From Roseiflexus sp. (GTDB lineage: Bacteria > Chloroflexota > Chloroflexia > Chloroflexales > Roseiflexaceae), in the NCBI GenBank assembly GCA_017743475.1, contig JAGHYV010000050.1, positions 1 through 36,502 of the forward strand: DNA of 36,502 nucleotides, read 5' to 3'. The notes under the pieces are model-generated. The model ran no database searches and was not told where the DNA came from. It saw only the letters and a program-made list of their open reading frames with translations. The position numbers and the translations under genes are program-made. This document shows, piece by piece, positions 14,391 to 27,252 of this stretch (the first letter of the stretch is position 1; every line of letters starts with the position of its first letter).

Positions 14391-14480
14391 TAGCCCGCGC
14401 AGGCGGGCTTTGCCTTGCTTAGCCGAGGGCTTATGGTCTTTGAATCAACGTATCAGAGAACTGCTATAAATTCTCAATAT
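14391..14480 (-). repeat. Dispersed repeat R1, copy 2 (inverted)
   Basis: Read on the minus strand this begins ATATTGAGAATTTA, includes AAGCCCTCGGCTAAGC and ends CCTGCGCGGGCTATA. It thus matches 4270-4357 at both ends while the middle has diverged. Confidence 0.7.
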
Positions 14481-20197: not shown

Positions 20198-20429
20198 GGA
20201 TGTTCCTGTTCTGTGATGACCTTCTCTCGCCAGTCAAGAGTCGTATTCGATCTACGACTCGGATACGCTCTGGCCTGCCTTCTGGATGATACCAGGGCTT
20301 GTAGGGCGAAGATTGCCAGCAGTGTCAGCCCTCTTTCTCAATCACCTCAATTATGTCCGATGTATCGGACGCTTTTTATTATCGTATATCGAAGATATGC
20401 TGATAGAGATCCAAATTATCGAGCAGATA

Positions 20430-20458
20430 TTGACAAGAGTAGCAACCAGGTGTATACT
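20430..20458 (+). promoter_or_regulatory. Consensus promoter driving the T-box leader
   Basis: TTGACA (20430-20435), a 17-base spacer and TATACT (20453-20458) form an almost perfect housekeeping promoter. Transcription would begin near 20465, giving a leader of about 330 bases that contains the T-box riboswitch. Confidence 0.88.
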
Positions 20459-20462
20459 ATGC

Positions 20463-20531
20463 AATGCGCCTGCCTGTGTCGGGTACATTTCCCCTCTATG
20501 CAAGGGACGTTCAGGACTGGGAAGGCGCATT
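20463..20531 (+). promoter_or_regulatory. 5' extension stem of the T-box leader
   Basis: AATGCGCCT (20463-20471) and AGGCGCATT (20523-20531) are a perfect 9-bp inverted repeat spanning the predicted first bases of the transcript. It would form an additional long hairpin domain before Stem I, not a standard T-box part. It may protect the 5' end. Confidence 0.5.
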
Positions 20532-20779
20532 ATTGCAGCAAAAAGGCGTAAACGTGCAACAGCGACTTCGGGATGGTGGAAGCCAAAGGGTATCGTGCGT
20601 CTATTTCTGGCTGTGATATCTGTCAGGGAAAACCTGCATCGCAGGGCAAACTTGGCCGTTCACGCGCATTAAGCGTTTCGAGTGAGCAGAATACGAACGT
20701 GTTCTGCTAAGCGGGATGGTACCGCGGGTTGTGGTCAACCCGTCCCGGCGCGGTTTTAGCCTTGCCAGGACGGGTTCCT
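20531..20779 (+). ncRNA. T-box riboswitch upstream of a MerR-GAF regulator
   Basis: T-box RNAs sense uncharged tRNA and control the downstream gene. The conserved T-box is clear: GCGGGATGGTACCGCGG at 20711-20727. CGGGA (20712-20716) pairs with TCCCG (20743-20747); a 7-base bulge TGGTACC (20717-20723) contains TGGT to pair with a tRNA ACCA end; and a second helix is formed by GCGGGTTG and CAACCCGT. AACCCGTCC (20737-20745) also pairs perfectly with GGACGGGTT (20768-20776), giving the competing terminator-like hairpin. Stem III is AGCAGAA/TTCTGCT (20685-20691 with 20702-20708). The Stem I apex AGCGACTTCGGGATGGTGGAAGC (20561-20583) has both interlocking T-loop motifs, and lower helices can be drawn. 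The specifier is unresolved: fixed spacing points to TCT or TTC near 20605-20608, while TGGT demands A73, favouring Phe (TTC) over Ser. An ATC at 20618-20620 is another option. Confidence 0.85.
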
Positions 20780-20798
20780 TACTTGATAGGAGGATCCG

Positions 20799-22907
20799 AT
20801 GGCCACAAAACTGCTTGCTGATCGATCGGCACGCAGCGCAGGTCAGAATGATGTCGAAATCTACCGTAACGGTTCGCTTACAGTTCCAAAAATTGCCGCT
20901 CCCGATCCAGAAGTAGCTGCGTTGCTCGATCGCGTCCTTCCCACGGTGGAAGTATGGCGCGAGCATCTGACTGTCAGCATCGGACGCGCGACGGAACTGA
21001 CCGGTCTCAAGGACACTCAGATCCGCTACTTTGAAGAATTGTACGGGCAGGAGCGCGATACCTCCGTCCCTGCTGGAGCAACGCGCTCCTATTCGCTGGC
21101 AGATCTCCGTAGGCTGGCAGTGTTTGCCGAATTGTTGAAGCATGGGTATCGCCCGGCACAGGCAGCCGAGATTGTGCGTTCACTTGCGCACTTAATCGAC
21201 CGGGGGGCGACGCGCAATATTGCCGACGTACTGCGTCGGGAGGGGGATGCGATCACCGATGGTTTTCTCCTTTCGCGCCTGGCAAGTCAGGTTATTTTTG
21301 CTGCCCAACTCGAACTGCGCGAGCGAGCGCCGGATGCCAGGATTACGGCAATGTTCGTCGTCGAGCAGGTCATCGATCCCGCTTCGACCGTTGATGTGAC
21401 TCGCATCGGCAGGGAACTCGCAGCGGATGCTCGAGATATGCTCGTTGCTTTAGATCGCGCGACCATTGTCGGTGAACCGTTTGAAGGCGGTGACAGTCTA
21501 TGGTCTGACGATGAAAGCAGTATCGTGCTGTTCTACAGCCGCGAGTCGTGGAGCGTTCCTCTGCCGGACAATACAGCGTTTTGTTGCTATCGTCCGCCGT
21601 CGGCGCCTGAAACGACAGTCGTGTTTGCAGTTCAGTCGGTTGTGCCGGAGATCATTCCGCCAGTGTTCAATGTTGCACTTCCTGCGCGCGACCATTTGAT
21701 CGACTGGATGGTGCGCATGTGTTGCGTCATCTTCCCGGAATTTCGCCAGGCGACTTATGCGCACGGGTATCGTTATCGCTCCGACGGATATCGACTAGCG
21801 CACACTCGCGACACTCTGAATCGTCTAATGCAGCGCATGCGCAGCTTGATTTTTGGCGACGATGCAGAGGTGAGCATGGCATGCCTGCTGCTGCCCAACG
21901 ATCTGTACAAACCCACGCATCTTTCGATTCTAGCGCATGCTGGCTACTCCGAAGAAATTGCACGTCGTGTGCGACTCAGTCTCTCTGGCGAAGGGGAAGG
22001 GTTGAGCGGTCGGGCATTTCTGACGCGTGAGCCGTTTCTGACGCGCGATGCTGCTCATGATGAGCGCGTGTACGGCGCTCAGAATGAGCATTGCAAAGTG
22101 GCGCTGGCTGTGCCGCTCCTTTCCCACTGGGATACCCACCCGTTTGGTGTGCTTTACCTGGCATCGCAGCGTCCTGCGTCGCCTCTGCTGAGTGAAACGG
22201 CATTTGTGGCACTAGTGTTCAGCAATATTCTTAGTGAGTTACTCGGGCGCTGGTGGCTCACCCGTCTGCGTCGCAAGCACGATGCTTTGCTGCATACCTA
22301 TGTGACTGAGTACATCCGCTGGTTCAACGGGATGGATCTGCATGGTCCTGAGTTCGAAGAGGGCGTGCGGCAGATCGAGCACATCTGGGAGCGCGCTGCT
22401 GCGATGAGCGAGGCAGGCAGCGGACGTGCGGTTGTGGAACGTATGTCGCGTCAGTATGTGACCCTGGCAGTGCTTGATATTGATCGCTGCCGCGACCATC
22501 GCGGTCGGGGCGATGAACCGTTCCTGCTGGCAGCGCAGCGTCACGTGCAAAAGGCGGTTGAGCAGATTCTCCCCGGTGTGCGGGGATACTGGTTCAAAAA
22601 TGATCATACCCTGCTGGTGCTCGATGGGTGTTCGCTCGACGAAGCTGTCGTGCTGATCAGGCGGATCGCCAGTCGGGTGCAGATGGTGCCAGTTGTGATT
22701 GCTGGCAGGTCTGAACGCACTCCAGTCACAATAAGCGCTGCATTGAAGACGCTTTCGTATCAGGAACTCTACGACCTCTCGCACCACGACCGGGACGTGC
22801 TGAAGTCCAGTCTGACTTCGATCATCGAAGTGCTCTATGAGAAGACTCATAGATCGGAACGAACTATTCACGTGTTCCAGAATGGCGACTGGAAAAAAGA
22901 TCCCTAA
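20799..22907 (+). CDS. MerR-type HTH / GAF regulator with degenerate GGDEF-like C-terminus
   Basis: This 702-residue protein starts at ATG 20799 after a TAGGAGG site. Residues about 58-130 form a MerR-type DNA-binding domain (SIGRATELTGLKDTQIRYFEE, then TRSYSLADLRRLAVFAELLKHGY). Residues about 330-500 read as a GAF sensor domain (MACLLLPND, LSGEGEGLSGRAFL, VALAVPLLSHW, FGVLYLAS). The C-terminal part has a nucleotide-cyclase-like beginning (YVTLAVLDIDRCRDH) and WFKNDHTLLVL where an active enzyme would have GGDEF, so it is probably not catalytic. It is likely a cytoplasmic transcription factor responding to a small ligand. A T-box leader directly upstream implies control by the charging state of a tRNA, very unusual for a regulator. 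A strong terminator follows. Confidence 0.87.
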   Translation: MATKLLADRSARSAGQNDVEIYRNGSLTVPKIAAPDPEVAALLDRVLPTVEVWREHLTVSIGRATELTGLKDTQIRYFEELYGQERDTSVPAGATRSYSLADLRRLAVFAELLKHGYRPAQAAEIVRSLAHLIDRGATRNIADVLRREGDAITDGFLLSRLASQVIFAAQLELRERAPDARITAMFVVEQVIDPASTVDVTRIGRELAADARDMLVALDRATIVGEPFEGGDSLWSDDESSIVLFYSRESWSVPLPDNTAFCCYRPPSAPETTVVFAVQSVVPEIIPPVFNVALPARDHLIDWMVRMCCVIFPEFRQATYAHGYRYRSDGYRLAHTRDTLNRLMQRMRSLIFGDDAEVSMACLLLPNDLYKPTHLSILAHAGYSEEIARRVRLSLSGEGEGLSGRAFLTREPFLTRDAAHDERVYGAQNEHCKVALAVPLLSHWDTHPFGVLYLASQRPASPLLSETAFVALVFSNILSELLGRWWLTRLRRKHDALLHTYVTEYIRWFNGMDLHGPEFEEGVRQIEHIWERAAAMSEAGSGRAVVERMSRQYVTLAVLDIDRCRDHRGRGDEPFLLAAQRHVQKAVEQILPGVRGYWFKNDHTLLVLDGCSLDEAVVLIRRIASRVQMVPVVIAGRSERTPVTISAALKTLSYQELYDLSHHDRDVLKSSLTSIIEVLYEKTHRSERTIHVFQNGDWKKDP

Positions 22908-23352: not shown

Positions 23353-23476
23353 AGAAATGCGTAGATAAGCACGCACCGCTCCGGCTCAATTCCTGGTTTT
23401 CTCCGACGAGGCGATATGATACGGGTAAAGTTCGAGGTTGTCCGTATCCTCCCATTATTATGGAAGGAGCCTCATC

Positions 23477-25540
23477 GTGGACATCCCGTTATTGATCCAT
23501 GTTGGCGGAAGTGTTGTCGGTTTTTGGGCTGGTCTATTTCTAGGTAATCGCACCGCGTATCATCCCTCGACGCGGTGGCTTCGCTGGACGTTTGTCTTCA
23601 CTGGTTGCTACTTCCTCCTTAGAGCGATTGAATCCTCTCTCAAATCTCCTGTACACTATCTCACACAGGTACAACTGATACCGGCTCTGGTTGCGCTGGC
23701 ATGCTGGCGCGGATGGGTGATCGGTGTGCGCGGCATTACCCGTGCAGAGCGTCGGGCTCGCTGGATTTATGTTGCTCTGGCGGTTGGATGTGCGCTGATC
23801 TCTGCGCTCGTCCTTGTGCCATCGGTGATTATTACCGGCGGGTACCTTATCGTCACGCTGGGGAGCGTCTGGTTCAGGACTTGGCGACTGTACCAACACG
23901 AAACGATCCTGCCAGCACAGCGGGCGGCCAGGACGTTGCTCGTCGCAACCACAATCATCTGCATAAGTGTAGTGACGCTGGCGGCAGTCGCGTGGCTGCA
24001 ACCAATGCCGTCGGAGATTGCCGGAATGCTAGATCAGGCAGTCAAAGGTATGCTCTGTGGCGGCATTGCGCTGCTGGGGTACGGGGCGCTCGTCTACACG
24101 CGTCGGCACATCGGGCGCAACAGCAGTCGTGATTATCTGGTCAGCGGACTTGCCAGCCTGGGTATTGTGATGGTGTACGGGCTTATCCTGATCGCTTTTC
24201 ACAACGTAACCCAGAGCGTGTTGATGGCAGAACAGGCGCTGGTGCTGGGGATTATCCTTGTGCCGGTGCTCATTGCCACGCACTTCGGATTCGATCAACT
24301 CCGGGATGCGCTCGACTGGTTGCGCTTCGATCAATCGTCGCGCCTGATGCGCAGCATGATGCGCTCCTTTGCCAGACAGATTGGCACGGAAAAATCATGC
24401 GATCAGGTGGTACGGGAGTGCCTGCAAACGCTCGCCTGTGTTGCAGACGTATCGCGCAGCGCACTGTTCTGGTTCGAAGATCACGAAGCACGGTTGCTCG
24501 CATCACACGGGCATACACCGTCATATGCGCCCAAGAAGAGCGATCTTCTCGCTGTGCGGATGCGACGGTTCGATCAATGCGCCGATTACACCTATCTGCT
24601 GCCGCTCAGCGTGGCTCGAAAACAGCGCGGTGCGCTATTGCTTAGCAGTCCTGGTTATGGGCAATGGTCGCCCCGCGAGCGCGAGCAACTCAGTACGCTC
24701 GGCATGTTGCTGGCGGCGTATATCGAGCACTCCCGCTCCGAGCCGACGACCATCCCGCAGCGCATTCATCGCCTCGAAGAGCAGGCGCGTGATGTACAGC
24801 AACTGCACGCCGCATTGAGCGATGTGCAGCCGCCCCTGGTGGTCATAACGACGCTGGGCCGTTTCGATGTTCAGGTCAATGGAAAACCAGCGTCGTACCG
24901 GCGTATGCGCATTGGGCGGCATATGTTCCAGGGGATGTTGATGTATCTCGTCGCTCACACAGGGCGTCCCGTTCGGCGTGATGTGCTGGTCGAGGTGGCG
25001 CTGGAGCATCGTCGTGGGCGCAAACACGAAGATGATCTGCCGGACGAGTCGCACTACATTTCCGGATTGCGCACAACCTTGCAGCATTGGGGGATGGGCG
25101 ATGCGTTGGATGTGACTACCGAAACCGTCACGCTGAAACGCCATCCGTCCTGGACGACCGATACCGATCAGGTGCTGGCGTTGAGCAACAGCGCCAGACA
25201 GGATATCGTCCAGGGTCGGATTGAAGCGGCTGTAGCGGCGCTCGAAGAAGCGCTTAGTTTCTTCCACGGCGATTACCTGCCGCAGTACGACGCACCTGAC
25301 CATCGCATTGACCCCGAACAACGAAGGTGGGAGCGTGAACGGGTGCAGATCGAGAAGCTCCTACTCAAGTGTTACCTTCGCCTGCCGGACCTCTCAGCCA
25401 GGCAGCATGCTCCAAATATTGCAGACGCTATTCTGAGTCGGAATGAAGATGATCCAGAGATGGTGCGCCTGGTACTGGACGTTGCGCAGCGCCTTCAGGA
25501 CAATCACCTGCTTCAGCGCTGTCACACCATCCGGGAATGA
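23477..25540 (+). CDS. Membrane-anchored GAF / winged-helix / BTAD (SARP-like) regulator
   Basis: The 687-residue protein starts at GTG 23477, seven bases after AAGGAG. About residues 1-275 hold seven or so hydrophobic segments. A GAF-like domain follows (about 290-430). After a short coiled segment comes an OmpR/SARP-type winged helix (LVVITTLGRFDVQVNGKPAS, RDVLVEVALEH, HYISGLRTTLQHWG, then the wing strands). The C-terminus is a bacterial transcriptional activator (BTAD) helical domain (DIVQGRIEAAVAALEEALSFFHGDYLPQYD, VQIEKLLLKCYLRL). A membrane sensor fused to a SARP-like DNA-binding module is uncommon; it would bind DNA while attached to the membrane or after release. The operon downstream has SARP-style repeats in its promoter, making it the obvious candidate target. 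Confidence 0.88.
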   Translation: MDIPLLIHVGGSVVGFWAGLFLGNRTAYHPSTRWLRWTFVFTGCYFLLRAIESSLKSPVHYLTQVQLIPALVALACWRGWVIGVRGITRAERRARWIYVALAVGCALISALVLVPSVIITGGYLIVTLGSVWFRTWRLYQHETILPAQRAARTLLVATTIICISVVTLAAVAWLQPMPSEIAGMLDQAVKGMLCGGIALLGYGALVYTRRHIGRNSSRDYLVSGLASLGIVMVYGLILIAFHNVTQSVLMAEQALVLGIILVPVLIATHFGFDQLRDALDWLRFDQSSRLMRSMMRSFARQIGTEKSCDQVVRECLQTLACVADVSRSALFWFEDHEARLLASHGHTPSYAPKKSDLLAVRMRRFDQCADYTYLLPLSVARKQRGALLLSSPGYGQWSPREREQLSTLGMLLAAYIEHSRSEPTTIPQRIHRLEEQARDVQQLHAALSDVQPPLVVITTLGRFDVQVNGKPASYRRMRIGRHMFQGMLMYLVAHTGRPVRRDVLVEVALEHRRGRKHEDDLPDESHYISGLRTTLQHWGMGDALDVTTETVTLKRHPSWTTDTDQVLALSNSARQDIVQGRIEAAVAALEEALSFFHGDYLPQYDAPDHRIDPEQRRWERERVQIEKLLLKCYLRLPDLSARQHAPNIADAILSRNEDDPEMVRLVLDVAQRLQDNHLLQRCHTIRE

Positions 25541-25583
25541 TCGTTCATCTTCCTCTTTCTAGAAATATTAGAAAATCTTTGTT

Positions 25584-25650
25584 TATCTCTGAACTTTCGA
25601 GATCACCGATATTTCTCGTCCGTATCTCAGTCGTTTCTCAGCAGTATACC
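25584..25650 (+). promoter_or_regulatory. SARP-like heptamer repeats and -10 box
   Basis: Heptamers TTTCTCG (25612-25618), TATCTCA (25623-25629) and TTTCTCA (25634-25640) recur at exactly 11-bp intervals, each followed by a 4-base spacer ending in G. A -10 box TATACC (25645-25650) comes four bases after the last. Looser copies TATCTCT (25584) and TTTCGAG (25595) are also 11 bp apart. SARP activators characteristically bind 11-bp-period heptamers next to the -10 box of promoters with poor -35 elements, as here. Confidence 0.7.
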
Positions 25651-25660
25651 TAGAATGAAA

Positions 25661-25710
25661 CTGTCACCGCAGGGGGTATTGCTCGTTGAGCAACGCCGTT
25701 CCGGTGACAG
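25661..25710 (+). promoter_or_regulatory. Nested leader stem-loop before the PH-domain gene
   Basis: CTGTCACCG (25661-25669) pairs perfectly with CGGTGACAG (25702-25710), and inside the loop TTGCTC (25679-25684) pairs with GAGCAA (25688-25693). The ribosome site (GAGGGGG) begins right after the structure, so the stem could influence translation or mRNA stability. Confidence 0.6.
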
Positions 25711-25723
25711 AGAGGGGGCTGCG

Positions 25724-26179
25724 ATGACAACATCCGCACATTCCTTCGCTCGTGATCTGGTCTTTCGCCCACATCCGCACATTGTCGCCAGCAAGATTGT
25801 TGTGCTCCTGGGAATTGGCGGCGGCATGCTCGTAGCCAGCATTGTTTACTCCTCTGCACTGACGCTGCCAGTAGTGATCGTCGCGCTGGCGCTGGCGCTG
25901 CGCATCGCGTATCTGGAACTGACGACATTCCTGATCGTGCGGGGCGACACTCTGCTGTTGCAGTACGGGTGGATCTTCCGCCGGGAAGAGCGCATTGCAC
26001 TCCATCGCACCGACGTGATGACGACGCAGAGCCTGGCGGGTCGCCTGCTGGATTACGGTCACATCACGTTTACCTGCGATGATCGGGCGATTGAGGTGCG
26101 CAACATTGCTCAATTTCGACGGTTGCAGGAGGAACTCGCTCGATTACAACGTATTCCAGCCCTGTGGAGGTCCTCATGA
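25724..26179 (+). CDS. Bacterial PH-domain membrane protein (YdbS-like)
   Basis: This 151-residue protein has two hydrophobic segments (about residues 22-62: IVASKIVVLLGIGGGMLVAS and LTLPVVIVALALALRIAYLE). A bacterial pleckstrin-homology domain of the bPH2 kind follows: TTFLIVRGDTLLLQYGWIFR, RIALHRTDVMTTQSLAGRLL, YGHITFTCDDRAIEVRNI. Such proteins are membrane-associated with unknown biochemical roles. ATG 25724 has a GAGGGGG site; the longer frame from 25655 would run through the leader stem-loop. Its stop overlaps the start of the kinase gene (ATGA), so the two are translationally coupled and probably act together. The upstream heptamer repeats suggest control by the adjacent BTAD regulator. 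Confidence 0.88.
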   Translation: MTTSAHSFARDLVFRPHPHIVASKIVVLLGIGGGMLVASIVYSSALTLPVVIVALALALRIAYLELTTFLIVRGDTLLLQYGWIFRREERIALHRTDVMTTQSLAGRLLDYGHITFTCDDRAIEVRNIAQFRRLQEELARLQRIPALWRSS

Positions 26180-27252
26180 AGCGATTTGTGCAAGACCTGG
26201 CGAGACGATTTGCGTTCACGTTGATGGTGGTGGCGTTGATCGTGCTGATGCTGGGCGAGGAGGCGAGGCGCGCAGCAGATTTCGCATTTCTGCTCGCGGT
26301 CGGCCTCGGTCTGCTGGGGATCGAGTGGATCGTCGCACTGTCCGACCGCATCTGCTGCAATGTGTCGTCCTGTCTGGTGTCTGCCGTCTGTACGTACGCG
26401 TCGAGTCGCCCGACGCCTTCACCGTGCGCGTTCAGGCAGCGGGTTCGCCGCCAGGCGTCGGAGGGAGTGACCGTTCCCATCTTCCGGCGTGTGTCGCAGG
26501 CAGCGCTCCAGTATGCGTCCGTGTCACGTCGCTTCCTGGAGTACCGAGAGCTGACGCGTCTCCGCCGAACGGCGCTGCATGAGGTGCTGATTGCACGCAA
26601 TGCACATACGGGGCAGCGCGTGGTCATCAAGCGGGTGCTGCCCGGCGTCGCAGACCGTGATCTGAAACGCGAGGCGGGAATGCTCGTCTGGCTTGAACTG
26701 GAGCGAGTGCCGATCCCAGCGCCGCGCTATATCGATTACCATGAGCGCGATGGACGCAGCACCCTGGTGATGACGTACATCGAGGGACGCACGGTTGAGG
26801 AATTGTCGGCGACCGGGACGATTTCCGCTCCGGTGATCGTCCGGTTGCTGGCGAAGATATGCGTGGCGCTCGATACACTGCACCGTGCCGGGTATGTGCA
26901 CCAGGATATCAAGCCCGCCAATCTGATCCTGGAACCCGGAGGCTCGCTGGCGGTCATTGATTGGGGTTCGGCGCGGCGCATCCATATCCCTTACGATCCG
27001 GGCGCGATCACCTGCACGCCGGAGTTTGCCAGCCCGGAGCAGTTGCGCGGACTGGTGCTGCCGGGCAACGACCTGTACGCCATCGGGAAGACGCTGGCAG
27101 CCGTCATTCCGGTGCCGCCGCCAATGCTGGCGCAGGTCATCGCCCGTGCGACCGGTCCCCTGTCGCGCCGGTACGCCACCGGTGCCGATCTGGCCCATGC
27201 ACTGCTGACGGCAATGCGTATCGATGCGGCGTGGCAGGGCGGGGCGGCATAA
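26176..27252 (+). CDS. Membrane-linked Ser/Thr protein kinase (Hanks type)
   Basis: The 358-residue protein begins with two hydrophobic segments (about 12-27 and 35-56), then an unassigned linker and a kinase domain (about 125-355). Visible catalytic features are Lys152 in VVIKRV, HQDIKPANLIL with Asp244 and Asn249, the metal-binding Asp262 in IDWGSA (DWG for DFG) and SPEQL in place of APE. The glycine-rich loop is atypical, with no GxGxxG before Lys152. Residues about 58-95 are Cys/Ser-rich and poorly protein-like. A second frame there (26345-26470) reads LYVRVESPDAFTVRVQA, which looks more natural, so a compensating frameshift pair is possible. ATG 26176 overlaps the PH-gene stop and has GGAGG nearby. 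A hairpin terminator follows. Confidence 0.85.
   Translation: MKRFVQDLARRFAFTLMVVALIVLMLGEEARRAADFAFLLAVGLGLLGIEWIVALSDRICCNVSSCLVSAVCTYASSRPTPSPCAFRQRVRRQASEGVTVPIFRRVSQAALQYASVSRRFLEYRELTRLRRTALHEVLIARNAHTGQRVVIKRVLPGVADRDLKREAGMLVWLELERVPIPAPRYIDYHERDGRSTLVMTYIEGRTVEELSATGTISAPVIVRLLAKICVALDTLHRAGYVHQDIKPANLILEPGGSLAVIDWGSARRIHIPYDPGAITCTPEFASPEQLRGLVLPGNDLYAIGKTLAAVIPVPPPMLAQVIARATGPLSRRYATGADLAHALLTAMRIDAAWQGGAA

Follow-up and report, generated by a model that had tools for sequence, protein, structure and literature searches.

The stretch of DNA analysed here (36,502 nucleotides, hereafter the window) comes from a Roseiflexus genome of 4.97 Mb, in which it forms contig C40. Positions 20799 to 22907 of its plus strand encode a MerR-GAF regulator of 702 amino acids, in which Pfam recognises a MerR_1 domain (residues 60-128) and a GAF_2 domain (residues 337-460). 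The protein was modelled with AlphaFold2 (mean pLDDT 76), and Foldseek matched the model to diguanylate cyclases and GGDEF domains. On inspection, the C-terminal part (about residues 553-684) appears to adopt a GGDEF-like fold with FKNDH at the place of the signature; Pfam recognised no GGDEF domain in this part. The genes that follow on its 3' side, at 23438-27252, encode a BTAD regulator, a PH-domain protein and a Ser/Thr-type kinase, an order that is kept in relatives. Elsewhere in the window, the CRISPR-DR28 repeat model matches once, on the minus strand at 14391-14414, with 41.5 bits.

Ahead of the regulator gene lies a promoter at 20430-20458 of the plus strand, which matches the consensus at 11 of 12 positions (TTGACA at 20430-20435, TATACT at 20453-20458, spacer of 17 nt). 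The same hexamers, with TTGACA or TTGACT at -35, and the 17-nt spacer were present in all eight orthologous loci. About 35 bases 5' of the -35 hexamer, the alignment of Roseiflexus orthologues revealed a conserved box, TTTATTATCGTATATCGAAGAT (20375-20396, plus strand), which might be an operator. It occurs as a single copy in the genome even when up to three mismatches are allowed, and a regulon search with the box returned this one site and no targets. A Shine-Dalgarno sequence, AGGAGG, is located at 20788-20793 on the same strand.

The region between promoter and gene, 20464-20798, is confirmed as a T-box leader. The first-pass annotation had placed a promoter, a Stem I apex, a Stem III, a T-box and a 9-bp hairpin before the ATG at 20799, and all of them were found within a few bases. 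The covariance search that it had called for matched the Rfam T-box model RF00230 over its whole length (model positions 1-219) to positions 20528-20749 with 35.3 bits, at an E-value of 2.7e-6 in a 481-base stretch and 6.6e-6 in the whole genome. This score lies under the gathering score of 93, as do those of all orthologous leaders, and the leader was missed by an Rfam scan of the window at gathering thresholds and found at a relaxed threshold.

All elements of the leader are on the plus strand. Stem I (20532-20617), delimited by the RF00230 alignment and by covariation of its three helices, consists of a lower helix (20532-20539/20610-20617), an upper helix (20545-20549/20597-20601) and an apical helix (20566-20571/20583-20588). 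Its apex contains the AG bulge AGCGA (20561-20565) and the apical sequence GGUGGAA. The 3' side of the specifier loop, UAUUUCUG, was located at 20602-20609 by alignment with the orthologues. Stem III (20685-20708; arms 20685-20691/20702-20708) comes after a conserved AGUG and shows three compensatory pairs. It is followed by the antiterminator or antisequestrator at 20712-20747, as placed by the RF00230 alignment, in which the bulge UGGUACC (20717-20723) lies between helices A1 (20712-20715/20744-20747) and A2 (20725-20730/20737-20742). In the alternative hairpin (20737-20776), AACCCGUCC at 20737-20745 pairs with GGACGGGUU at 20768-20776 over 9 bp, and this pairing is mutually exclusive with A1/A2. 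Three elements go beyond the earlier description, namely the specifier, Stem II (20622-20656; outer helix 100% paired, with one compensatory pair) and an extra hairpin 5' of Stem I (20464-20530), seen in the sequence and in folds. The arms of the latter are AUGCGCC (20464-20470) and GGCGCAU (20524-20530). Similar arms are found in most other Roseiflexus leaders, G005 has a different hairpin, and none is evident in G008. We also considered a leader-peptide attenuator; frames open at the AUG at 20464 in the window and in its nearest relative, but their length varies in the other leaders, and this candidate was rejected. K-turn and loop-E motifs are usual, though not universal, in T-boxes with a long Stem I; a K-turn or loop-E (AGUA/GAA) was not recognisable in Stem I of any of the seven aligned leaders.

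For comparison, the T-boxes of the genome and of the family were collected. The window's genome gives six RF00230 matches including the MerR-GAF leader; the genes of the other five are read as ileS (specifier AUC), thrS (ACC; a small membrane protein gene comes first), trpB-like (UGG), pheS (UUC) and glyS (GGC). When 91 Roseiflexaceae T-boxes were sorted by downstream gene, 7 were MerR leaders and 84 were others, with mostly synthetase and amino-acid genes downstream. Some of the family T-boxes have other neighbours as judged by eye. Those with a UCC-type specifier and a UGGC bulge precede NUDIX-like genes at seven loci (L109, L116, L122, L133, L147, L157, L179) and a uracil-DNA-glycosylase-like gene at L165; these are possibly the first genes of a serine-related operon. 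UGGU T-boxes with the specifier loop CUC (Leu) stand before a SAM-methyltransferase-like gene in three genera (L121, L151, L171). In genome G002, four synthetase-type T-boxes (L161, L172, L173, L174) have no U-run after the competing hairpin, which suggests that translational T-boxes occur elsewhere in the Roseiflexaceae.

Full-length or nearly full-length orthologues of the MerR-GAF protein were found in seven other Roseiflexaceae genomes, with 91-38% identity. The nearest relative compared (G009; one contig, 5,801,598 bases) has a protein that is 91% identical. Directly upstream of the orthologue, RF00230 matched in six of the seven genomes with 42.6-60.9 bits; even the orthologues that are 65% and 38-40% identical, the latter from another genus, retain the leader. 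In the seventh genome, G011, the homologous leader is degenerate, with the bulge altered to UGGUGCU, and RF00230 gives no match. At this locus (L009, bases 981-1500), the bulge, A2 and the base of Stem I have decayed, and the alternative hairpin and the start-codon complement described below are retained. Outside the family, in relatives from the other side of the order, an RF00230 search at an E-value of 10 upstream of orthologues with 39-42% identity (L022-L026) found no T-box.

The conservation of leader and gene as a pair across the Roseiflexaceae supports the assignment of the leader to the MerR-GAF regulator gene, as had been claimed from the window sequence. The first-pass annotation had offered as an alternative that the gene originally downstream was lost by rearrangement; such a gene would be one for a synthetase or a transporter, removed by a recent local deletion. 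In favour of this, most T-boxes of the family stand before synthetase and amino-acid genes. However, six other genomes carry the same leader at the same gene. When 158 genomes of the class were searched at the DNA level with the leader's 3' half, it was found once in each of seven genomes, always at the MerR-GAF locus, and there was no convincing match before any other gene; G008 and three further genomes gave marginal matches only (E-values 0.001-0.009), the one in G008 lying at another T-box. Comparison of five long orthologous loci showed syntenic flanks, with a divergent SDR gene upstream and genes for a BTAD-type regulator, a PH-domain protein and a kinase downstream (one of the five has no called PH gene), and no synthetase gene near the locus. 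Because the pair is kept, the leader is unique to the locus and the synteny includes no synthetase, recent loss of an original target is unsupported, and we regard it as extremely improbable.

A further possibility is that the leader formerly sensed tRNA, is now decaying and matters only as an untranslated region. Consistent with this, the specifier varies between close relatives, G011 shows a degenerate bulge and A2, and the window copy has the lowest T-box score among the scored orthologous leaders. It also counts against our main reading that the window copy is the only one with a C-A mismatch in the apical stem of Stem I, and that it has a changed base adjoining the T-box bulge. These observations have to be weighed against covariation, for which seven leaders were aligned, with shuffles and slid helices as controls. 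In Stem I (lower, upper and apical) and Stem II, 94.7% of the alignment cells were paired, compared with 31-45% in the slid controls, and 14 pairs of the aptamer helices had changed on both sides, a number reached by none of 500 shuffles. In the 3' part of the leader, A1 is invariant, A2 is 93.6% paired, and the alternative hairpin is paired in 100% of cells (eight sequences), with one pair changed on both sides. The seven scored leaders show no change in the tRNA elbow platform (AGCGA and GGUG..A) or in the UGGUACC bulge, and the apical stem covaries. Together with the retention of the leader by distant orthologues, this makes a decaying relict decidedly unlikely.

How the leader would control its gene had been left open, with tests of termination proposed; the evidence points rather to translation initiation. 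In an ordinary transcription-attenuating T-box, the alternative hairpin would serve as the terminator, with UUCCUUACUU as its weak U-rich tail, and the start-codon complement described below would be a coincidence. What speaks for this is the strength and complete conservation of the hairpin, its incompatibility with A1/A2 and its position, where the genome's other T-boxes have their terminators. However, a run of at least five U after the T-box was found in none of the seven MerR leaders versus 71 of the 84 other family T-boxes (Fisher p 1e-5), all five others of the window's genome having such a run, and a terminator scan made no call at the alternative hairpin. Attenuation thus seems to us rather unlikely, though it deserves to be kept in mind.

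Instead, free folds paired the A2 5' strand and loop, UUGUGGUC (20729-20736), with the first codons, GRCCACRA. In the window, the complementary start-codon region is GGCCACAA (20801-20808), and folds of the full leader give the helix a probability of 0.94 (37 °C) or 0.91 (55 °C). In full-length leaders folded at 55 °C, the values were 0.78-0.91 for the six functional copies and 0.68 for the degenerate copy; all these folds are predictions, made on a small number of related sequences. The start region is complementary to the A2 strand over 8-9 nt in six of the seven leaders, compared with 8 nt or more in none of 65 other T-box genes, and 94% of the alignment cells of the helix are paired. Single-species shuffles gave p-values of 0.02-0.15, the species being related and not independent. 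Between species, nucleotide identity is 81% at +4 to +9 (codons 2-3), which is unusually high, and 45-59% in the codons that follow. The distant leader of G008 lacks the same complement and shows a comparable GGUUG/CAACC pairing slightly downstream, seen after the fact. When A1/A2 was forced in the fold, the predicted accessibility of the start codon rose in the window (from 0.17 to 0.59) and in G009, G010 and G005 (from about 0.2 to about 0.5), and the start region was not freed in G013 and G012, so that release was predicted in four of six leaders. Since a U-run is absent and a conserved start-codon helix with release in four of six folds is predicted, we favour translational control over termination and consider it the probable mode of action of this leader.

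The Shine-Dalgarno sequence could also be the target, in an inverted sense: the antiterminator would free GGGUUCCU, which would pair with the Shine-Dalgarno region and turn the gene off in starvation. In most leaders, GGUUCCU can indeed pair with AGGANCC, but this helix is no better than in shuffled columns, and the accessibility of the Shine-Dalgarno sequence is nearly equal in both states, with no rise upon forcing of A1/A2 in any species folded. An inverted switch therefore appears very improbable.

In the favoured mechanism, start-codon sequestration, the antiterminator 3' half AACCCGUCC would be captured by the alternative hairpin when uncharged tRNA is lacking, and the freed A2 strand and loop would then pair with the first codons and bury the start codon. 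Uncharged tRNA would bind Stem I, through specifier and elbow platform, and the UGGUACC bulge, upon which A1/A2 would form; A2 would take up the loop strand, the start codon would be released and the regulator would be made. What the analysis shows is the T-box architecture, conserved and covarying, its constant association with the gene, the lack of a U-tract and the complement to the start region; tRNA binding, the switch and its direction, and a role of the regulator in starvation are inferred. On balance, we think that the leader is a T-box through which tRNA charging determines how much of a transcription factor is made, most likely by control of translation initiation. Its expression platform, newly described here, is unlike that of other T-boxes of the Roseiflexaceae.

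The cognate tRNA was approached by comparing the specifier register with family T-boxes for ileS, thrS, trpB, pheS, glyS, proS and alaS. The candidate specifier in the window is UCU (20606-20608; Ser), or CUG if read one base later. In the other leaders, the corresponding loop sequences on the 3' side are UGUGUUCG, UGUAUCCG, CAGAUCCG, UGGAGCCG, UGUUUCCG and AGUCCC, and the specifier differs among species, close relatives included. With one purine before the lower helix, the seven leaders give four UCC and one each of UCU, UUC and GCC, mostly Ser; shifted by one base, they give four CCG and one each of CCC, CUG and UCG, mostly Pro. In most species, the Ser register agrees with two rules for specifiers, a C in the third position and a purine on the 3' side (PMC7583486). 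The Pro register suits the UGGU bulge better, because tRNA-Ser of the window's genome has G73 and tRNA-Pro has A73, and the other family T-boxes are mostly Watson-Crick at this place; UGGC is found in those whose specifier is UCC or stands for Trp or Asp. One tested Ser T-box carries UGGU, however (PMC8002221). Depending on the register, tRNA-Ser (UCN) or tRNA-Pro (CCG) are thus the candidates. With an elbow platform and an acceptor-end bulge but a drifting specifier, the leader might even sense starvation in general, through the charging of several tRNAs, and relay this signal via start-codon sequestration to the transcription factor and its whole regulon, an idea that we hold to be speculative and unlikely. 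The drift among close relatives is a natural experiment on how strictly the anticodon has to be read by a T-box.

The literature assigns to T-boxes the control of amino-acid genes and of genes for tRNA charging (PMC3766115, PMC7583486). Their described targets are synthetase, biosynthesis and transport genes, on which they act directly. If our reading is true, a T-box has become fixed before a DNA-binding regulator, tRNA charging sets the expression of a gene set in trans, and a mode of translation switching is added in which a strand of the antiterminator itself covers the start codon. A literature search, whose scope did not extend to the main T-box surveys of 2008-2009, found no report of the MerR-GAF T-box locus, which may be listed in TBDB or RegPrecise; within the same scope, it returned neither a T-box on a DNA-binding transcription factor nor start-codon sequestration by an A2 strand.

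The leader shares with the attenuating T-boxes of RF00230, such as those of ileS, pheS, thrS, trpB and glyS in the same genome, the Stem I AG bulge, the T-loop platform, Stems II and III, the UGGN-ACC bulge and a competing hairpin. It differs from them in the downstream transcription factor, the missing U-run, the lack of a recognisable K-turn or loop-E, the extra 5' hairpin and the unstable specifier. Like the translational ileS T-boxes of Actinobacteria (PMC7583486, PMC10482949), it has no terminator, and in both cases competition has been proposed between the antisequestrator and a structure that prevents translation initiation. However, the actinobacterial elements control access to the Shine-Dalgarno sequence, and their short-Stem-I type shows the specifier in the apical loop, whereas the MerR-GAF leader has a long Stem I with an elbow platform and a start codon that is proposed to be blocked by the A2 strand. 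With the anti-TRAP T-box of Bacillus subtilis (rtpA/yczA; PMC11255114) it has in common that the target is a regulatory protein; anti-TRAP, which is under T-box antitermination, is a protein that inhibits an RNA-binding protein, whereas the product of the MerR-GAF gene is a DNA-binding protein of the MerR family.
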